A stretch of DNA of 64,000 nucleotides, from assembly GCF_900141885.1 (NCBI RefSeq), contig NZ_FQYY01000006.1, forward strand, positions 186,001-250,000. Reading direction: 5' to 3'. The translations under genes and the position numbers were made by a program. The stretch is from Mesonia phycicola. Its GTDB lineage: Bacteria; Bacteroidota; Bacteroidia; Flavobacteriales; Flavobacteriaceae. This document shows, piece by piece, positions 8,323-16,213 of this stretch. Within the stretch, counting starts at the first letter, position 1, and every line of letters starts with the position of its first letter. The notes below the pieces were generated by a model that worked only from the letters and a program-made list of their open reading frames with translations, ran no database searches and was not told the origin of the DNA.

Positions 8323-9345
8323 TTATAATTTTAAAGTAGACTCTCTTACCACCAAGTGTGTTTTTATTTCAATAGTTTTATTAGTTAATTGTGTTTCGTT
8401 ATCTAATTCTTCAATTAAATATTTAACAGCTGTACCTCCTATTTTTTGACCTGGCTGATCTACCGTAGTAAGTTTGGGAGATATAATAGTAGAATTTAAA
8501 GAATTACTAAAACCAAGTACTGCAATATCATCTGGTATTTTAATATTTAGTTTTTTTAATGTTTTAATAACTCCAATAGCACAATCATCTGTAATAGTAA
8601 ATATAGCATCAGGTCTTTTTTGTAAACTTAATAGTTGGTAAGCTAACCGTTGCCCGTGCTGTAAAGAAATATCTTCGGTACTTAAAATGTATTGTTCATC
8701 TACAGGAAGATTGTGTTTTTTTAGTGCTTTTAGGTAGCCTGCAAAACGCATTTCAGAGTTAAAAGTTTTTTCTGTTTCTTTAATAATAGCAATATTTTTT
8801 TTACCAGTATGTATCAAATGCTCTACAGCCTCAAAAGCAGCTTGTTCTTCATTAATTATCACGTGGGTACAAGGTATTTTATTAGAAATTTTATCTAATA
8901 AAACCAGTGGTATACGTTCTGATGCAGAAATAATACTTTGCACATCTTTAGTTTTTCTTGTAAGAGATAGCAAAAGACCGTCTACCCCAAACTGCATCAT
9001 CATTTGTATAACTTCATTTTGTTTTTTAGGGGAGTTTTTAGATTCAGACACAATTACTCGGTAACCTTTTTCTTCAGCCTCATTAAGTACTCCTTCAATA
9101 ATTGTAGAAGTGAAGTAATTAGAAATTTGTGGTACTACTAAACCAATAATATGTGTTTTTTGAGACCTAAAACCCTTTGCAAAAAGATTAGGGTGATAGT
9201 TCATTTTTTTAGCGTACTTGCATATAACTTCTTTAGTAGAAGCACTAATATCTGGATGATTATTTAAAGCTCGAGACACCGTTGAAACAGAAAGTTCTAA
9301 ATCTTCAGCTAATCTTTTTAAGGTAATGGTGGCTCTTTTTTTCAT
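8323..9345 (-). CDS. LacI-family transcriptional regulator
   Basis: A 340-aa regulator with an N-terminal LacI helix-turn-helix: ITLKRLAEDLELSVSTVSRALN at about residues 6-27, then the hinge-helix region NYHPNLFAKGFRSQ. The rest is a periplasmic-binding-protein-like effector domain (IGLVVPQISNYF, GVDGLLLS, DAIFTITDDCAIG, TTVDQPGQKIG). An in-frame TTG at 9351 could extend it by two codons, but the ATG at 9345 puts MKKRATITL in the usual position. It is divergent from the TonB receptor, hydrolase, symporter and glycerate kinase genes, and two LacI-type half-site palindromes lie between them, so it is very likely the local regulator. Its effector may be the glyceryl sugar or a product. Confidence 0.93.
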   Translation of the reverse strand: MKKRATITLKRLAEDLELSVSTVSRALNNHPDISASTKEVICKYAKKMNYHPNLFAKGFRSQKTHIIGLVVPQISNYFTSTIIEGVLNEAEEKGYRVIVSESKNSPKKQNEVIQMMMQFGVDGLLLSLTRKTKDVQSIISASERIPLVLLDKISNKIPCTHVIINEEQAAFEAVEHLIHTGKKNIAIIKETEKTFNSEMRFAGYLKALKKHNLPVDEQYILSTEDISLQHGQRLAYQLLSLQKRPDAIFTITDDCAIGVIKTLKKLNIKIPDDIAVLGFSNSLNSTIISPKLTTVDQPGQKIGGTAVKYLIEELDNETQLTNKTIEIKTHLVVRESTLKL

Positions 9346-9350
9346 ATACA

Positions 9351-9366
9351 ACTATTACGTTTTCGT
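9351..9366. promoter_or_regulatory. Candidate LacI-type operator 1
   Basis: ACTATTACGTTTTCGT is centred on CG and its right half GTTTTCGT resembles the half-site GTTTGCGT known from LacI/PurR-family operators. It shares 11 of 16 positions with the second site 39 bp away. It sits 5 bp upstream of the regulator ATG, where binding would also block the regulator's own transcription. Confidence 0.5.
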
Positions 9367-9389
9367 AAAAATACAAATTTCAAATGTTC

Positions 9390-9405
9390 CCGGTAACGTT
9401 TGCGT
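9390..9405. promoter_or_regulatory. Candidate LacI-type operator 2
   Basis: CCGGTAACGTTTGCGT is CG-centred with a perfect LacI/PurR-type half-site GTTTGCGT on the right. It stands out from the surrounding AT-rich DNA by its GC content. TATTTTG, one base short of a -7 box, follows at 9409-9415, so a bound repressor would cover the receptor promoter. Assignment to the adjacent regulator is inference from position. Confidence 0.6.
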
Positions 9406-9492
9406 GAATATTTTGTATAATTTCATTAAAATTAATGTTAAATAATAATAATTTCACAAAAAAACACATAGTTATAACCTAAATAATTAATA

Positions 9493-12087
9493 ATGAAAAC
9501 AAAATTACTAACCCTTATTGTATTATTTTGCGGTTTGTTTGTAGTAGGGCAAACTAAGATTTCGGGACAAATTACAGATCCTTCTGGGATGGCAATTCCT
9601 GGAGTAAATGTTGTTGTTAAAGGAACCTCTGATGGAGGAATTACAGATTTAGACGGGAACTTTTCTTTTGTAAGTAATCAAGTTGGTGCTCAAAAAATAC
9701 AAGCATCTTATGTTGGCTTTGAGATGTATGAAGAAACGAAAACGTTTGATGGCTCAGAAATTAAATTAGCTATTCAAATGAAAGCAAGTTCAGAGCAATT
9801 AAATGAAGTTGTTTTAACCGCTACTTCTACAAGACGTAGCCAAAAAGAAACACCATTATCTATTACATCATTTGGTCAAAAAGAACTGGCTCAAAAAAAT
9901 ACTGGTAGTCAAGCAGATATTTTAAGAAGTGTACCAGGTATTACTGCAGAAGGTGGTGGTGGTGAAGTAGGTGCCAACGTTTTTGTAAGAGGTTTACCTT
10001 CTGGTGGGCAATATCAATTTAACCCTATACAAATTGATGGAATGCCAGTATTAGGTACCTTTGGTTTAAATTCTTCTGCTCATGATGTTTATTTTAGAAA
10101 CGATTTGGGTATGAGAAGTTTAGAGTTTGTAAGAGGTGGTTCTTCAATTTTATACGGAGTAGGTTCTGTTGCAGGTATTATTAACTACACTAGTGTTACC
10201 GGAAGCGCTCAACCTAAAACAACTTTAAGAATAGAAACGGCAACTAACTCTCGTTATAAAGCAGATTTTGTTACTAGCGGACCTTTAGGAGGTGAAGATT
10301 CAGATCTTTTTTACTCTTTTTCAGGTTTTTATAGATATGATGAAGGCCCTATTAAAACAGGACTTACTACTCGTGGTTTTCAATTAAGAGGAAATATAAA
10401 AAAGAAGTTTGAAAATGGCTCTTTTACCTTGTCTGGTCAAACGATAGACGATAAAGTACAATTCTTTCTTCCATTACCATTAGAGGGGGGTACAAGAGCA
10501 AGACCTACAGGTAATGACGGAGAAACTATTTATACTTTACAAACCGCAGCAGCCTCAGATTTTTCTTACCAAACTCCAGATGGAATGTATCACTCACCTA
10601 TAGATGACGGAGTTAAAACAAAAGGAGGTTATTTTCTAGCAAATTACATTTACAATTTTGAAGATGATTTAAAATTTGATGCAAAATTAAGATATAGTAA
10701 ATACCAACATGAATTTAATCTGTTTTTAGACGGAAGTGGTTTAGCTGATGCAAACGTGGTAGAAACTCAAGCTGAATATCTTGCAGCAAGAAATTTAAGT
10801 AGTGGAGATTTTACATACTTAAATGGAGAGGCTTTAGATAGTGATGCATTATTGTTTGAAAATAGAGTATTAGATCGTGATAGACCTATACAAGAACTAA
10901 TGGCAGACATTAAACTAGTAAAAAGTTTAAATGCACATACCTTTACGTTAGGTTCTTTTATGACACACTCAGAAGCAGATGATGTTAATTTTATAACTAG
11001 CTATTTAAGTGAGTATAGAGATCGTCCAGATTTAATTAATGTTTCGGGTTATACCGTAAATGGTATAACAAATAGAGGGACAAGCTATAGTAATAGAAGT
11101 GTAACTAGTAATAAAATTGCTGTTTACTTAGCAGATGAAATTAGATTAGATAAGTGGAATTTTGACGTAGGGCTAAGATACGAAAGAGCTTCTGGAGATA
11201 TTAAAATTGAAGGAACAAAAAGTTATGTAGTAGATAATACTGGTATAGAGAATATAGACAATGTAATGTGGGGTAACGGCAGCTATACAAGAGGTCATGT
11301 AACAGCAGATGGTTTGGCTGTAGCATTAGCTGCACTTTATAAAATAGATGAATCTTACAGTGTGTATGGTAACTTTTCTAAAGGTTATTTCTTCCCAGAA
11401 CTTAGAAGTATTAGTTTTGATGGTTTTGGAAATCCTGCCTCTTATAAGCCAGAAAATATTTTACAAGGAGAAGCTGGTTTAAAATACGGAAAAGGTAAAT
11501 TATCTGGTACGGTTGCTTTATACGGAGTAACTTTAAAAGATAGAAGAGCAGTTACCTTTGTAAATACAGATGATGGTGGTGCTACAGAGCAAGTAGATAT
11601 TCAAGATAGTGAAACTTATGGAGCAGAAGTTACCTGGAACTGGAGATTTGTAAAAGATTTTAGCTTTGGCGGTTCTGTAACTTACCAAGATCACCAATTA
11701 ACAAAATCTGAAGGTAATCCAGAATTTGTAGGAAACGAGTTAAGACGTCAACCAAAATTACTAGGTACCTTAAACTTAGGCTATAATAACACCAAAGTAG
11801 ATGCAGCTTTTGGCTATAACTATACAGGAGAGAAGTATAGTAATGATGCTAATACCATTTTATTAGATGCTTTTGGTTTAGCTTCTTTAAATATGGGATA
11901 CACCTTTAGTATGGGAGAAAACTTAGAGTCTATTCGTTTAGGTGCTCGTGTTTACAACTTATTTAATAGTGAAGGCATTACAGAAGGTTCTCCTAGATTG
12001 GCAGATAACCAAACAGAAGAAGCATATTTTGTAGGTCGTCCGGTATTACCAACACGTTTGTTTTTATCGGCAACCATCAATTTTTAA
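9493..12087 (+). CDS. TonB-dependent receptor with carboxypeptidase-like N-domain
   Basis: An outer-membrane active transporter of 864 aa. It has a signal peptide (about 1-19), a carboxypeptidase regulatory-like beta domain at about 22-108 (GVNVVVKGTSDGGITDLDG), the join LNEVVLTATSTRRS, and a plug domain at about 115-235 (SQADILRSVPGI, VFVRGLPSGG, FVRGGSSILYG). A 22-strand barrel should follow, ending in the aromatic residue of SATINF. There is no SusD lipoprotein gene next to it, so it is a stand-alone receptor and not a SusCD pair. As first gene of the putative glucosyl-/mannosylglycerate operon it probably imports the sugar acid or a larger conjugate. Confidence 0.93.
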   Translation: MKTKLLTLIVLFCGLFVVGQTKISGQITDPSGMAIPGVNVVVKGTSDGGITDLDGNFSFVSNQVGAQKIQASYVGFEMYEETKTFDGSEIKLAIQMKASSEQLNEVVLTATSTRRSQKETPLSITSFGQKELAQKNTGSQADILRSVPGITAEGGGGEVGANVFVRGLPSGGQYQFNPIQIDGMPVLGTFGLNSSAHDVYFRNDLGMRSLEFVRGGSSILYGVGSVAGIINYTSVTGSAQPKTTLRIETATNSRYKADFVTSGPLGGEDSDLFYSFSGFYRYDEGPIKTGLTTRGFQLRGNIKKKFENGSFTLSGQTIDDKVQFFLPLPLEGGTRARPTGNDGETIYTLQTAAASDFSYQTPDGMYHSPIDDGVKTKGGYFLANYIYNFEDDLKFDAKLRYSKYQHEFNLFLDGSGLADANVVETQAEYLAARNLSSGDFTYLNGEALDSDALLFENRVLDRDRPIQELMADIKLVKSLNAHTFTLGSFMTHSEADDVNFITSYLSEYRDRPDLINVSGYTVNGITNRGTSYSNRSVTSNKIAVYLADEIRLDKWNFDVGLRYERASGDIKIEGTKSYVVDNTGIENIDNVMWGNGSYTRGHVTADGLAVALAALYKIDESYSVYGNFSKGYFFPELRSISFDGFGNPASYKPENILQGEAGLKYGKGKLSGTVALYGVTLKDRRAVTFVNTDDGGATEQVDIQDSETYGAEVTWNWRFVKDFSFGGSVTYQDHQLTKSEGNPEFVGNELRRQPKLLGTLNLGYNNTKVDAAFGYNYTGEKYSNDANTILLDAFGLASLNMGYTFSMGENLESIRLGARVYNLFNSEGITEGSPRLADNQTEEAYFVGRPVLPTRLFLSATINF

Positions 12088-12115
12088 AAAAAATAAAAAA
12101 TTAATTAATAAAAAC

Positions 12116-12143
12116 ATGGTTGTCTTGTAATCAAGGCAACCAT
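12116..12143 (+). other. Intercistronic stem-loop
   Basis: A 12-bp stem with one T-G wobble (ATGGTTGTCTTG at 12116-12127, CAAGGCAACCAT at 12132-12143) closes a TAAT loop. No T-run follows, so it is not a standard terminator. Its position 29 bp after the receptor gene and 13 bp before the hydrolase ATG suggests an mRNA-stabilising or partial-attenuation element that keeps receptor mRNA more abundant than the downstream genes. Confidence 0.6.
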
Positions 12144-12156
12144 ATTATTCTTGTTT

Positions 12157-13467
12157 ATGAAAGAGACATTAGTAGAAAAAGCAAAAACAATATTAAAAAA
12201 CAATAATCAAGGTGGGTTTACCATTCCCTGTGAAGGTTTGTACCCTTTTCAATGGAACTGGGACTCAGGGTTTATAGCTGTAGGTTTAGCTCATATAGAT
12301 ATTGAATTAGCAAAAGAAGAATTACAATCTTTATTAGATGCACAGTGGGAAAACGGTTTTATTCCGCACATCGTTTTTCATAATGATTCTGATAGTTACT
12401 TCCCTGGTCCAGATTTCCATCTTTCTAAATTACACAAAGACGCTTCTAAAAAATATAGAACAACAGGGATGACACAACCCCCCGTTTTAGGTTTTGTGCT
12501 TCAAGAAATGTATAGAATTGCAGAAGATAAAGAAGCTACTTTAAAGTTTATAGATACTATTATTGATAAAATTTACAAGAAGCACGAGTACCTTTATAAT
12601 AATCGCGACCCTAAAAATGAAGGTTTAGTTTACATATGGCATAATTGGGAGTCTGGTACAGATAATTCTCCTATTTGGGATGAGGTTTGGGAAACTATGA
12701 GTGATATTCCGCAATATACTTTTGAAAGAAAAGACACCACACATATAGATGCATCTCAACGCCCTTCTAATAAAGAATATAATTATTACATACACCTTAT
12801 AGAAGTAGCAAAAGCTGGTAATTATGAAGAAAGTGTTATTGCAGAAAAATCTCCGTTTTTAATTCAAGACCCTTTATTTAATGCTATGCTATTAGCATCT
12901 AATGAAGCATTAATAGATTTGTATAAGCAATTAGGTAGAGAAGAGCGTATCTCTCAGTTGGAAGAATGGACGCTAAAAACTAAGCAAAGTTTAAATGAAA
13001 AATTATTTGATGAAGAGTTAGGAGCGTATATGCATTACGATCTTAGAAATGAAAAACGTATTCAAAAAATAACTTCTTCATCTTATGCACCTTTATTTTC
13101 AAGTGCTCCTGAAGAAAAACAACTAAAATTAATATTAGAAAGTTACAATCAAAAATTTGCAACCTCAAATTTATATGCGTGTGCTTCTTTTGATCCTACG
13201 CACGAAGATTTCAATCCTAAAAAATATTGGCGTGGACCTATTTGGGTAAACTTAAATTGGTTAATTTACAAAGGTTTACTAAAGCATAACCAACCAGAGT
13301 TAGCGAACAATATAAAAACAGACACCATAGAATTAATAGAGAAATTCGGGTTTTATGAGTATTTTAATCCGCACAGAGAAATTTCTACAGAAAATGAAAG
13401 CAATGGTTGTGGAGGAGTTAATTTTTCTTGGTCTGCAGCTTTAATATTAGATATCTTGAAAGCCTAA
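12157..13467 (+). CDS. GH63-type glucosylglycerate/mannosylglycerate hydrolase
   Basis: A cytoplasmic (alpha/alpha)6-barrel hydrolase of 436 aa with no signal peptide. Its motifs match the mannosylglycerate/glucosylglycerate hydrolase branch of GH63: PFQWNWDSGFIAVGLA (residues 30-45), LLDAQWENGFIPHIVF, YFPGPDFH, TGMTQPPV, WHNWESGTDNSPIWD and the C-terminal FYEYFNPHRE...NFSWSAA. The likely acid is D169 (in GTDNSP) and the likely base E401 (in YEYFNP); their spacing of 232 residues is close to the D167/E402 pair I recall from the Thermus enzyme. The family releases glucose or mannose plus glycerate. A TTG at 12151 could add two residues. The sugar specificity cannot be decided from sequence; trehalase-like annotation would be a family-level alternative. 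Confidence 0.85.
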   Translation: MKETLVEKAKTILKNNNQGGFTIPCEGLYPFQWNWDSGFIAVGLAHIDIELAKEELQSLLDAQWENGFIPHIVFHNDSDSYFPGPDFHLSKLHKDASKKYRTTGMTQPPVLGFVLQEMYRIAEDKEATLKFIDTIIDKIYKKHEYLYNNRDPKNEGLVYIWHNWESGTDNSPIWDEVWETMSDIPQYTFERKDTTHIDASQRPSNKEYNYYIHLIEVAKAGNYEESVIAEKSPFLIQDPLFNAMLLASNEALIDLYKQLGREERISQLEEWTLKTKQSLNEKLFDEELGAYMHYDLRNEKRIQKITSSSYAPLFSSAPEEKQLKLILESYNQKFATSNLYACASFDPTHEDFNPKKYWRGPIWVNLNWLIYKGLLKHNQPELANNIKTDTIELIEKFGFYEYFNPHREISTENESNGCGGVNFSWSAALILDILKA

Positions 13468-13471
13468 ACCT

Positions 13472-15079
13472 ATGAATTATTTAGATTACATAATTATAGC
13501 AGTTTATTTATTAGGCTTTTTAGGGATAGGCTATTTCTTCAAAGAAAATAAAAATTCAAGTGATTATTTTTTAGGAGGAAGGTCTATTGGTTGGTTCCCG
13601 TTAAGTTTATCTACAATGGCAACGCAACTTTCAGCAATCAGCTTTATTTCTGCTCCTGCTTTTGTAGGCTTAAAAGAGGGTGGAGGTTTGCAATGGCTTA
13701 CTTATGAGCTTGCAGTACCTTTAGCAATGGCATTTTTGTTAGTAACCATTATCCCTACTTTATATAAATCAGGAATTATTAGTGTCTATGAATTTTTAGA
13801 AAAAAGATTTGATGCCTCTTCTAGGCTGTTAATAGCATTTGTTTTTCAAATAAGCAGGTCTGTAGCAACTGGAGTAATGGTGTATACTATGGCTTTAATT
13901 TTACAAGCTACCACTGGAATAGAATTTTGGATATCTGTTATTTTAATAGGCATTATCACTATGATTTACTCTTTTCAAGGAGGGATGAAAGCCGTTATTT
14001 GGGGAGATGTAATTCAAATGTGTATTCTTTTTTTCGGTATTGTTATCTGCTTGGCTTACGGTTTAAGTGAACTAGGTGGAGTTTCTAATTTTTTAACCGA
14101 AGTAGATGCAGATCGTTTAGTGGCTATAGATTTTACAAAATGGGGATTTAATAATGCAGATGGTAACGATGAGTTTGGTTTTTGGCCAATGATAATAGGT
14201 GGTTTCTTTTTATATGCTTCTTATTATGGTACAGATCAAACACAATCTCAACGTTTACTTTCTTCTAAAGATATGCCTACTATTAAAAGATTATTATTGG
14301 CTAATGGTATATTTCGTTTTCCTATAACACTTACCTATTGTTTTATGGGGCTTGTTTTAGGTACATTATTAATGCAAGATGTTGGTTTTCAAAATTTACT
14401 AGAATCTACTTACCAAGAAAATATAGGGAATCTAGCAGGTAAAAAAGCAGACTTAATGGTGCCTATTTTTATCATTAAATACTTACCTAATGGTATTATT
14501 GGTATTTTAATAGTAGCAATTATGTCTGCCGCTATGTCTTCTTTAAGTTCTACTGTAAATTCTTTATCTGCAGTCACTTTAGAAGATTTTGTAAAACGTT
14601 TTAAACCAAATGTTACAGATAACGAGTATGTAAAATATTCTAGATTTATCTCTCTATTTTGGGGATTAGTTTGTTTAGGTTTTGCATTTTTTGCAGGTAG
14701 TATAGAAGGGACTGTGATAGAAGTAATTAATAAAATTAGTTCTGTTTTTTACGGACCAATATTAGCAGCTTTTATCTTAGCTATAGCTTCTAAAAAAGTG
14801 CAAGCAATGGGAGCAAACATAGGTATTGTTGCCGGTGTAGGTCTTAATATTTATTTATGGCTTGCTGTGCCAGAAGTATTTTGGTTCTGGTGGAATGCTA
14901 TTGGTTGCTTAACTACCATTATAGTTGCTATAGTAATTAGTAGTTTTATAAGAAATAAGAAAAGCAAAACCATAGAAGTGGTTTGGTATAAAAATGCAAA
15001 ATCTGCAGTGATAACTTTATTGATTTACTTTTTAGTTATTGTAGTTTTAGCTTGGTCACTTTCAAAAATATTAAGTTAA
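13472..15079 (+). CDS. Sodium:solute symporter (SSS family)
   Basis: An inner-membrane secondary transporter of 535 aa with about 13 hydrophobic helices, starting MNYLDYIIIAVYLLGFLGIGY. The SSS hallmarks are present: SSDYFLGGRSIGWFPLSLS, TQLSAISFISAPA in the first core helix (Na+ site region), SFQGGMKAVIWGDVIQ, and YYGTDQTQSQRLL. Relatives carry sugars, amino acids or organic acids with Na+. It begins 4 bp after the hydrolase stop and abuts the glycerate kinase, so it is most simply the cytoplasmic-membrane importer for the substrate of this operon. Confidence 0.9.
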   Translation: MNYLDYIIIAVYLLGFLGIGYFFKENKNSSDYFLGGRSIGWFPLSLSTMATQLSAISFISAPAFVGLKEGGGLQWLTYELAVPLAMAFLLVTIIPTLYKSGIISVYEFLEKRFDASSRLLIAFVFQISRSVATGVMVYTMALILQATTGIEFWISVILIGIITMIYSFQGGMKAVIWGDVIQMCILFFGIVICLAYGLSELGGVSNFLTEVDADRLVAIDFTKWGFNNADGNDEFGFWPMIIGGFFLYASYYGTDQTQSQRLLSSKDMPTIKRLLLANGIFRFPITLTYCFMGLVLGTLLMQDVGFQNLLESTYQENIGNLAGKKADLMVPIFIIKYLPNGIIGILIVAIMSAAMSSLSSTVNSLSAVTLEDFVKRFKPNVTDNEYVKYSRFISLFWGLVCLGFAFFAGSIEGTVIEVINKISSVFYGPILAAFILAIASKKVQAMGANIGIVAGVGLNIYLWLAVPEVFWFWWNAIGCLTTIIVAIVISSFIRNKKSKTIEVVWYKNAKSAVITLLIYFLVIVVLAWSLSKILS

Positions 15080-16213
15080 ATGAAGTTTGTAATTGCGCCA
15101 GATAAATTTAAAGGGTCATTAACCGGATTTGAATTTTGTACCGCAGTAGAAAAGGGATTATTAAAAGTATTCCCTAATGCAGAGATAATTCATCTACCCT
15201 TAGCAGATGGTGGTGATGGTACTTTAGATATTGCACAGCACCACCTAAAAGGAAGTAAAACAGATTGTTTAGTAAAAGATCCTTTTTTTAGAGAAATACA
15301 AGCTTCTTATGTTTTTTCAGAAGAAACAGAAACGGCTTATATAGAAATGGCAGAAGCTTCTGGATTAAAACGTATTGCTGAAAATGAAAAAAATGTAATG
15401 CAAGCAACCACCTATGGTACGGGAGAATTAATTCTGAATGCTATAGAAAAAGGAGCTAAGCATATATTGTTGGGTATAGGAGGAAGCGCTACTAACGACT
15501 GTGGTATGGGAATGGCAGCTGCATTAGGCTATTCATTTTTAGATGCAAGTGGTCAAAAGTTAAAACCAATTGGGGCTAATTTGTCACAAGTAGAAACAAT
15601 AGATATTTCTAACGTGCACGAAAAGTTGAAAAATATAAAATTCTCTATAGCTTGTGATGTACAAAATCCGTTATACGGAAATGAGGGAGCTGCTTTTGTG
15701 TATGCAGAACAAAAAGGAGCAAGCGTAGAAGATATTTTACAATTAGATAAAGGCTTGCAACATTTTGCAAGCATATTACAACAGCAGTTTGGAGTAGATT
15801 GCCAGCAAATTAATGGTGCAGGAGCAGCAGGAGGTATTGGTGCAGGAAGCGTGGTGTTTTTAAATGGTAATTTAGTTTCTGGTATAGAGCTTATTAAAAA
15901 TATAAGCAATTTTGATGAGGTTATACAAGATGCAGATTGGTTAATTACTGGAGAAGGTAAACTTGATGAGCAAACTTTTTACGGAAAAACCATACAAGGT
16001 GTTATTAATTCTGCAGAGCAATACAACATACCGGTAGCTGCTTTTTGTGGAGCAATTTCTCTAAGTATAGAACAACAACAGAAAATGGGATTAACGTATT
16101 GCACTTCAATTTTAAAATCTATTTCTACCTTAAATGAAGCTATAGAAGCATCAGAAAAAAACTTAATCTTTTCAGCATATAATCTAGCGCAGCTTATTTA
16201 TTTAAAAAAATAA
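15080..16213 (+). CDS. glxK: Glycerate kinase (class I, GlxK/GarK type)
   Basis: This 377-aa kinase phosphorylates D-glycerate; family members of this class usually make 2-phosphoglycerate, which enters lower glycolysis. The start MKFVIAPDKFKGSLT is the family signature, followed by LPLADGGDGTLDI, GIGGSATNDCGMGMAAALGY (residues about 133-152), GAGAAGGIGAG and DWLITGEGKLDEQTFYGK. The ATG follows the symporter TAA with no spacing. Its place after a glycosylglycerate hydrolase explains it: glycerate is the non-sugar product. No glyoxylate carboligase or tartronate semialdehyde reductase is nearby, which argues against a glyoxylate route. Confidence 0.95.
   Translation: MKFVIAPDKFKGSLTGFEFCTAVEKGLLKVFPNAEIIHLPLADGGDGTLDIAQHHLKGSKTDCLVKDPFFREIQASYVFSEETETAYIEMAEASGLKRIAENEKNVMQATTYGTGELILNAIEKGAKHILLGIGGSATNDCGMGMAAALGYSFLDASGQKLKPIGANLSQVETIDISNVHEKLKNIKFSIACDVQNPLYGNEGAAFVYAEQKGASVEDILQLDKGLQHFASILQQQFGVDCQQINGAGAAGGIGAGSVVFLNGNLVSGIELIKNISNFDEVIQDADWLITGEGKLDEQTFYGKTIQGVINSAEQYNIPVAAFCGAISLSIEQQQKMGLTYCTSILKSISTLNEAIEASEKNLIFSAYNLAQLIYLKK

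Follow-up and report, generated by a model that had tools for sequence, protein, structure and literature searches.

A predicted operon for the uptake and breakdown of environmental glycosylglycerates in Mesonia phycicola

Introduction

Glucosylglycerate and mannosylglycerate are salt-protection sugars of algae and cyanobacteria. Escherichia coli uses external mannosylglycerate as a carbon source by means of its mng genes, which encode an importer of the phosphotransferase system (PTS), MngA, and a GH38 hydrolase, MngB. Here, a five-gene locus is described in a 64,000-nucleotide stretch of the Mesonia phycicola genome (contig NZ_FQYY01000006.1, positions 186,001 to 250,000; the whole stretch is referred to as the window), in which genes for a TonB-dependent receptor, a GH63 hydrolase, a sodium:solute symporter, and a class I glycerate kinase follow each other, with a LacI-type regulator gene divergent from them. 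Unlike in the E. coli system, neither a PTS nor a GH38 protein is encoded among these five genes; the unphosphorylated solute would be hydrolyzed, and a glycerate kinase lies alongside. The locus is read as an inducible uptake and breakdown operon for environmental 2-O-α-glycosyl-D-glycerates—mannosylglycerate, glucosylglycerate, or both—with a probability of about 0.85.

The closest characterized enzymes belong to the same branch of GH63. According to PMC6608630, the mannosylglycerate hydrolase (MgH) of Thermus thermophilus acts on mannosyl- and glucosylglycerate with similar efficiency. The glucosylglycerate hydrolase (GgH) of Mycolicibacterium hassiacum, MhGgH, favors glucosylglycerate almost tenfold, and a role in internal turnover is proposed for it. 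Thermus MgH (PDB 2z07, 4wva-c) is 39% identical to the window hydrolase over 408 aligned residues, shares with it 19 of 19 checked contacts, including a Phe at the position of MhGgH Gln434, and is the top fold match. The comparison with Thermus covers the enzyme alone; the window hydrolase is encoded in an operon with a receptor, a symporter, and a kinase, with a LacI gene alongside. MhGgH (PDB 5ohc) is 34% identical over 420 residues and shares 18 of 19 contacts but differs in carrying Gln434, and the window protein stays below the cut-off of the NCBI GgH equivalog model.

The primary source on the digeneaside genes of Zobellia is reportedly Barbeyron et al. 2016. Digeneaside is mannosylglycerate (PMC8490865); it is listed among the predicted substrates of North Sea flavobacterial loci (PMC6298971), and homologues of digeneaside-degradation genes were found when Maribacter was searched for Zobellia galactanivorans traits (PMC8072126). 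These genes share solute and bacterial group with the present locus and possibly represent the same kind of locus. Flavobacterial digeneaside degradation is thus already predicted in print, and the statement in a sequence-only reading of this DNA that no such flavobacterial pathway was known has to be withdrawn. In the open-access full text consulted, supplements aside, no description of the operator, the stem-loop, the family-wide kinase tie, or the transporter exchange presented below was found.

The hydrolase

The hydrolase matches the complete Pfam profile PF22422 (positions 1-356 of 356) at 299.8 bits against a cut-off of 27, compared with 60.3 bits on the Trehalase profile. In the PDB, Thermus MgH gives the best sequence match with 304 bits, followed by MhGgH with up to 233 bits. 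The active site was compared at 19 MhGgH positions that PMC6608630 describes as catalytic or in contact with substrate. Eighteen are kept, including both catalytic acids (MhGgH Asp182 and Glu419); the sole change replaces Gln434 by Phe (F423). The positions corresponding to the acid, the base, Arg216, and Tyr222 are invariant throughout an alignment of 87 rows, made up of the window, 80 related loci, a second copy from locus L038, three copies from other genomes of the family, and the two references. Gln434 is present in MhGgH alone, and the other departures are His78 to Gln (once), Phe89 to Tyr (ten times), and Gln115 to Asn (once), some positions being gapped in one row.

An AlphaFold2 model of the hydrolase (pLDDT 92.3, pTM 0.93) leads to the same family. 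Among the Foldseek matches listed, ranks 1 to 20 are all MgH/GgH chains (E 2.5e-32 to 4.7e-28). The next family, YgjK, begins at 1.3e-14, some thirteen orders of magnitude weaker in E-value, and trehalases begin at 3e-12. By profile, residues, and modelled fold, the protein is a member of the MgH/GgH branch of GH63, with its activity predicted from homology, as the sequence-only reading had proposed. It is taken as cytoplasmic, no signal peptide having been seen on inspection by eye. A tree including trehalases and other outgroups is used solely for relations within the family, since its long branches do not allow either reference enzyme to be placed.

PF22422 also matches a class of about 525 codons elsewhere. 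Among 45 rows scoring at least 279 bits in a survey of the family, seven have open frames of 522-563 codons; a kinase gene adjoins none of these seven and is present somewhere in the genome for two. One such protein, encoded at L085:3716-5290, scores on the Pfam model as high as true MgH; the neighbors of its gene, judged by eye, resemble genes for rhamnosidases and other large hydrolases. PF22422 by itself was therefore rejected as a marker, since annotation by this profile alone would mislabel the longer class. A tandem pair of hydrolases, 42% and 46% identical to the window protein, is found in Sediminibacterium (L038:6626-9314).

The tie to the glycerate kinase

The kinase is a full-length match to PF02595 (466.6 bits, cut-off 23.3) and TIGR00045 (445.6 bits, cut-off 168.45), and it is the single PF02595 match in its genome. 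Its association with the hydrolase was examined in 249 genomes of the family drawn independently of the locus, the hydrolase being defined by a PF22422 match of at least 279 bits and an open frame of at most 480 codons. All 38 genomes with such a hydrolase carry a PF02595 kinase, compared with 82 of the 211 others (Fisher p 2e-14, with genomes treated as independent though related). In 34 of the 38, the kinase gene follows the hydrolase gene on the same strand at a distance of 1652 to 3433 bp. The hydrolase is tied to a glycerate kinase far above background.

A second comparison used the best 80 of 578 loci by hydrolase similarity, a choice biased to close kin (39-78% identity). Within 5 kb of the hydrolase, a symporter is encoded in 72 of the 80 loci, a kinase in 57, and a receptor in 43; a cluster-based count, which admits the truncated kinase of L023, gives 58 kinases. 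Where at least 4 kb of downstream sequence is available (68 loci), symporter and kinase are found in 63 and 54. These counts, together with the genome survey, provide the co-occurrence survey that had been proposed along with the sequence-only reading and confirm that the grouping of the genes is not chance. The enzyme pair of hydrolase and kinase recurs in other Bacteroidota. Fifteen of the 23 kinase-less loci were examined (14 with at least 4 kb downstream, plus L079, which ends early). In all of the 14 genomes concerned, a PF02595 gene is present elsewhere, and the class II kinase domain PF13660 has no match in 16 genomes, namely these 14, that of the window, and G065.

Variation among related loci

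In the genome collection, the closest hydrolase comes from Salegentibacter sp. R32 (locus L002; 78%). Seven genes stand there in the identical order, namely the five and the two that flank them, a miaA-like IPP-transferase gene and a gene for an ion channel. Seventeen flavobacterial loci with LacI and receptor genes (L002-L016, L035, L036) are designated type A; in these, the LacI relatives are divergent from the receptor gene. A second flavobacterial set, L017-L034, has neither LacI nor receptor matched. In many loci of the Saprospiraceae type, an AraC-type gene is divergent from the receptor gene (L069 scanned); its cluster has members in 24 loci, the one in L013 lying elsewhere. Five of the 80 loci contain a ROK-type kinase cluster and nine a GNAT-type gene, one representative of each having been scanned. 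Opitutae contribute five loci: L061 encodes a symporter but lacks a kinase, neither gene lies within about 8 kb in L067, L068, or L074, and the sequence of L079 stops just past the hydrolase.

Further genes accompany single groups. A MurQ-type (N-acetylmuramic acid 6-phosphate etherase) gene lies beside the hydrolase in 12 loci of the second set from several genera (e.g., L017:7115-7945; one scanned), and L036 has a second LacI-receptor pair directly 3′ of the kinase gene. The GntP-type permeases of L019 and L028 belong to the gluconate family, and both genomes carry a PF02595 kinase elsewhere.

Substrate, proposed pathway, and alternatives

Searches for the two-step synthases of these solutes gave no match to mannosyl-3-phosphoglycerate synthase (PF09488) in the genome, one control genome being matched. 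Six matches to the glucosyl-3-phosphoglycerate synthase GpgS (NF010496) were obtained, all below the cut-off (best 56.4 of 262 bits). The substrate is therefore probably imported, and a glycosylglycerate from outside is its best reading. Glucosyl- and mannosylglycerate cannot be told apart from the protein sequence: Gln434/Phe is the sole contact that sets MhGgH apart from every other row not gapped at that position, and it cannot settle the question because Thermus MgH, with Phe, takes both.

In the proposed pathway, the receptor would carry the solute over the outer membrane, and the sodium symporter would bring it intact into the cytoplasm. The hydrolase would cut it by inversion, with D169 as the predicted acid and E401 as the predicted base, to yield a hexose and D-glycerate. 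The kinase would then turn D-glycerate into phosphoglycerate for glycolysis; 2-phosphoglycerate is the product typical of this class of glycerate kinase. The LacI regulator would occupy one or two operators in the interval that separates its gene from that of the receptor until released by the solute or a product, and a stem-loop 3′ of the receptor gene would probably set unequal amounts of the receptor and the cytoplasmic proteins.

Several observations weigh against this reading. The hydrolase reaches only 347.2 of 550 bits on the NCBIfam GgH equivalog NF047898; as it falls short of this cut-off, it is filed as MgH/GgH-type with the sugar left unchosen, and glucosylglycerate cannot be given precedence over mannosylglycerate. 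The synthase searches covered the two-step enzymes, with none aimed at the one-step mannosylglycerate synthase, which represents a different family. The genome, 99.95% complete, gave no ROK match, whereas 12 of 14 control genomes did, and a PF02685 glucokinase was likewise not found; a BadF-type gene was matched below the cut-off only, and a search with PF03727 matched no control genome and is uninformative. Many relatives lack a receptor, which is encoded in 43 of 80 loci and, where 3 kb or more of upstream sequence is available, in 40 of 65. A GntP-type permease cluster occupies the position of the kinase in L019 (10967-12313, scanned) and L028. Hydrolase and kinase lie on different contigs in four of the 38 survey genomes (G158, G095, G183, G065); the kinase of G158 is close to a contig end, and in G065 (locus L082) hydrolase and symporter still adjoin. 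The glycerate kinase must have other uses as well, since it is common in family genomes without this hydrolase, as the 82 of 211 above illustrate. The operator core discussed below was chosen late and, of three more distant loci, is present in L038 and absent from L057 and L061.

These points reshape the original claim of a complete glycosylglycerate utilization locus. The type of enzyme, the tie to the kinase, and the absence of the synthases searched for stand in its favor. The word "complete" does not survive the lack of a ROK or PF02685 hexokinase match in the genome, and the argument that glycerate is the only product in need of a dedicated kinase fails, as the hexose needs one too and a ROK-type kinase cluster is present in five of the 80 related loci.

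Alternative readings concern the substrate, its origin, and the enzyme itself. The hydrolase might cut another small α-glycoside with an acidic aglycone and still free glycerate; a longer glucosyl-glucosylglycerate or a different glycoside of glyceric acid would be examples. Few MgH/GgH members are characterized, the 80 relatives are 39-78% identical, and the active site of the family is a capped pocket with a narrow access tunnel, as reported in PMC6608630. The glycerate- and hexose-contacting residues are nevertheless kept except for one, and MhGgH hydrolyzes neither glucosylglycerol nor glucosylglycolate (PMC6608630), so that this alternative appears improbable. Slightly less probable still is that the cell turns over glucosyl- or mannosylglycerate of its own making, the role proposed for the mycobacterial GgH after nitrogen starvation (PMC6608630), with receptor and symporter serving something else. 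Such a role is the one suggested for the characterized MhGgH, but the genome has no PF09488 match and no GpgS above the cut-off (one-step synthases lying outside the search), which led to rejection of this reading; the transport genes also reside within the same tight operon, and 72 of 80 loci encode a symporter close to the hydrolase. That the kinase lies by accident next to an ordinary trehalase- or glucosidase-like enzyme is hardly credible: although the Pfam trehalase match (2.2e-16, 60.3 bits) exceeds its cut-off of 21, profile, PDB, active-site, and fold comparisons all give MgH/GgH—a clustering with trehalases, named beforehand as the outcome that would speak against the assignment, did not come about, and a trehalase or glucosidase identity was rejected—the kinase tie is far above background, and a separate trehalase gene exists in the same genome (L098; PF01204 491.5 bits, 24.6% identical to the hydrolase over 167 residues).

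Transport genes and their apparent exchange

The symporter exceeds the cut-off of TIGR00813 (249.2 vs 184 bits) and reaches no equivalog model that names a substrate. The receptor stays below the cut-off of the SusC-type model TIGR04056 (86.7 of 368.25 bits), and no SusD domain was found in the five operon genes or in the five flanking genes scanned; a SusC/SusD polysaccharide utilization locus was rejected on these grounds.

The symporter tree places the window and L002 together with L030 and one Saprospiraceae locus; the hydrolase tree places them with Winogradskyella, Kordia, Tenacibaculum, and L030. With a chosen set of 27 rows, leaving out L030, a single clade of type A symporters is rejected (p-AU 1e-75), as is one of all flavobacterial symporters (p-AU 3e-79), and the type A hydrolases form one clade (value 97). 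The type A receptors are likewise rejected as one clade (p-AU 8e-6; 21 rows), and the type A kinases form one (value 99; 26 rows). The groups were set by gene content, yet the symporter tree had been inspected beforehand, and the p-values are accordingly less than strict. Compared with L002 in 300-bp windows, most of the symporter gene is 90-96% identical at the DNA level, the kinase gene 85-91%, and the remainder 72-88%, a pattern that would fit recent exchange or strong constraint. Taken with the grouping with L030 and Saprospiraceae, the similarity of the symporter to that of L002 suggests gene exchange inside the operon. Receptor and symporter appear to have been exchanged while hydrolase and kinase stayed together. 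One could extend this to a model in which hydrolase and kinase form a constant pair while receptor and symporter are swapped about it as modules. Transport, rather than the enzyme, which should accept both sugars, would then decide in each lineage whether the mannosyl solute of red algae or the glucosyl solute of picocyanobacteria is taken up; this extension is speculative and on balance unlikely.

Predicted regulatory elements

The sequence WACGTTTNCGTNA occurs twice between the LacI and receptor genes, with 0.06 matches expected in the window. A stricter pattern, ACGNNNNCGT, is found in about half of the 20 loci carrying both LacI and receptor. The core ACGTTTKC, picked after that pattern had missed the other half, is present in 18 of 18 type A intergenic regions (the window and 17 loci). 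In 200 shuffles, the count averaged 0.7 and never exceeded 4; random pieces taken from the 17 loci averaged 0.6, again with 4 as the highest value. Over all LacI-receptor regions, the core is present in 19 of 21. An extended form, ACGTTTKCGT, occurs in 10 of the 18 type A regions and the full palindrome, GCAAACGTTTGC, in 12, being absent from the window, L002, L012, L013, L016, and L036. Such a shape is typical of operators bound by LacI/PurR/CcpA-type proteins. Genome-wide, the strict operator pattern has three matches and its reversed control nine, and it is therefore uninformative beyond this locus.

The stem-loop between receptor and hydrolase genes folds with -17.1 kcal/mol (z -5.7) in the window, and a stem-loop occupies the equivalent place in all 17 type A loci. 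One stem sequence recurs in several of the Winogradskyella loci; the Kordia loci and the window have others. Because between 0 and 6 of 40 random pieces per locus fold as well, single stem-loops are moderate evidence, and it is their recurrence that counts. The element may act as an attenuator or a processing site.

Layout and genome context

Gene calling and Pfam domains bear out the five genes, strands, and spacing as first noted, with gaps of 4 bp between hydrolase and symporter and 0 bp between symporter and kinase (Table 1). The source genome measures 3.28 Mb. A congeneric genome, G053 (99% complete), has neither a PF22422 nor a PF02595 match in the family survey, so that the locus looks accessory within the genus.

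Table 1. Positions of genes and predicted elements of the locus, numbered within the window
Feature	Position	Strand	Remarks and basis
LacI/GalR-family regulator	8323..9351	-	divergent from operon; Pfam LacI and Peripla_BP_3
Operator-like site 1, WACGTTTNCGTNA	9356..9368	+	just 5′ of LacI start; pattern search
Operator-like site 2, same consensus as site 1	9395..9407	+	pattern search
TonB-dependent receptor	9493..12087	+	Pfam CarbopepD_reg_2, Plug, and TonB barrel
Stem-loop, receptor-hydrolase intergenic	12116..12143	+	12-bp stem, 4-nt loop; folding
MgH/GgH-type GH63 hydrolase	frame 12151-13467, ATG at 12157	+	Pfam MGH1-like_GH PF22422, 4.8e-89
Sodium:solute symporter	13472..15079	+	Pfam SSF, 3.4e-47
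Class I glycerate kinase	15080..16213	+	Pfam Gly_kinase PF02595, 6.9e-140

Significance

The signature of hydrolase, symporter, and kinase, often with a receptor, which is seen in Flavobacteriaceae, Saprospiraceae, and related Bacteroidota, could be used to trace possible heterotrophic recyclers of glycosylglycerates in genomes and metagenomes. The candidate regulator-operator pair could become a sensor for these solutes. With its transport genes apparently exchanged, the locus would also illustrate the swapping of uptake genes around a constant catabolic core.

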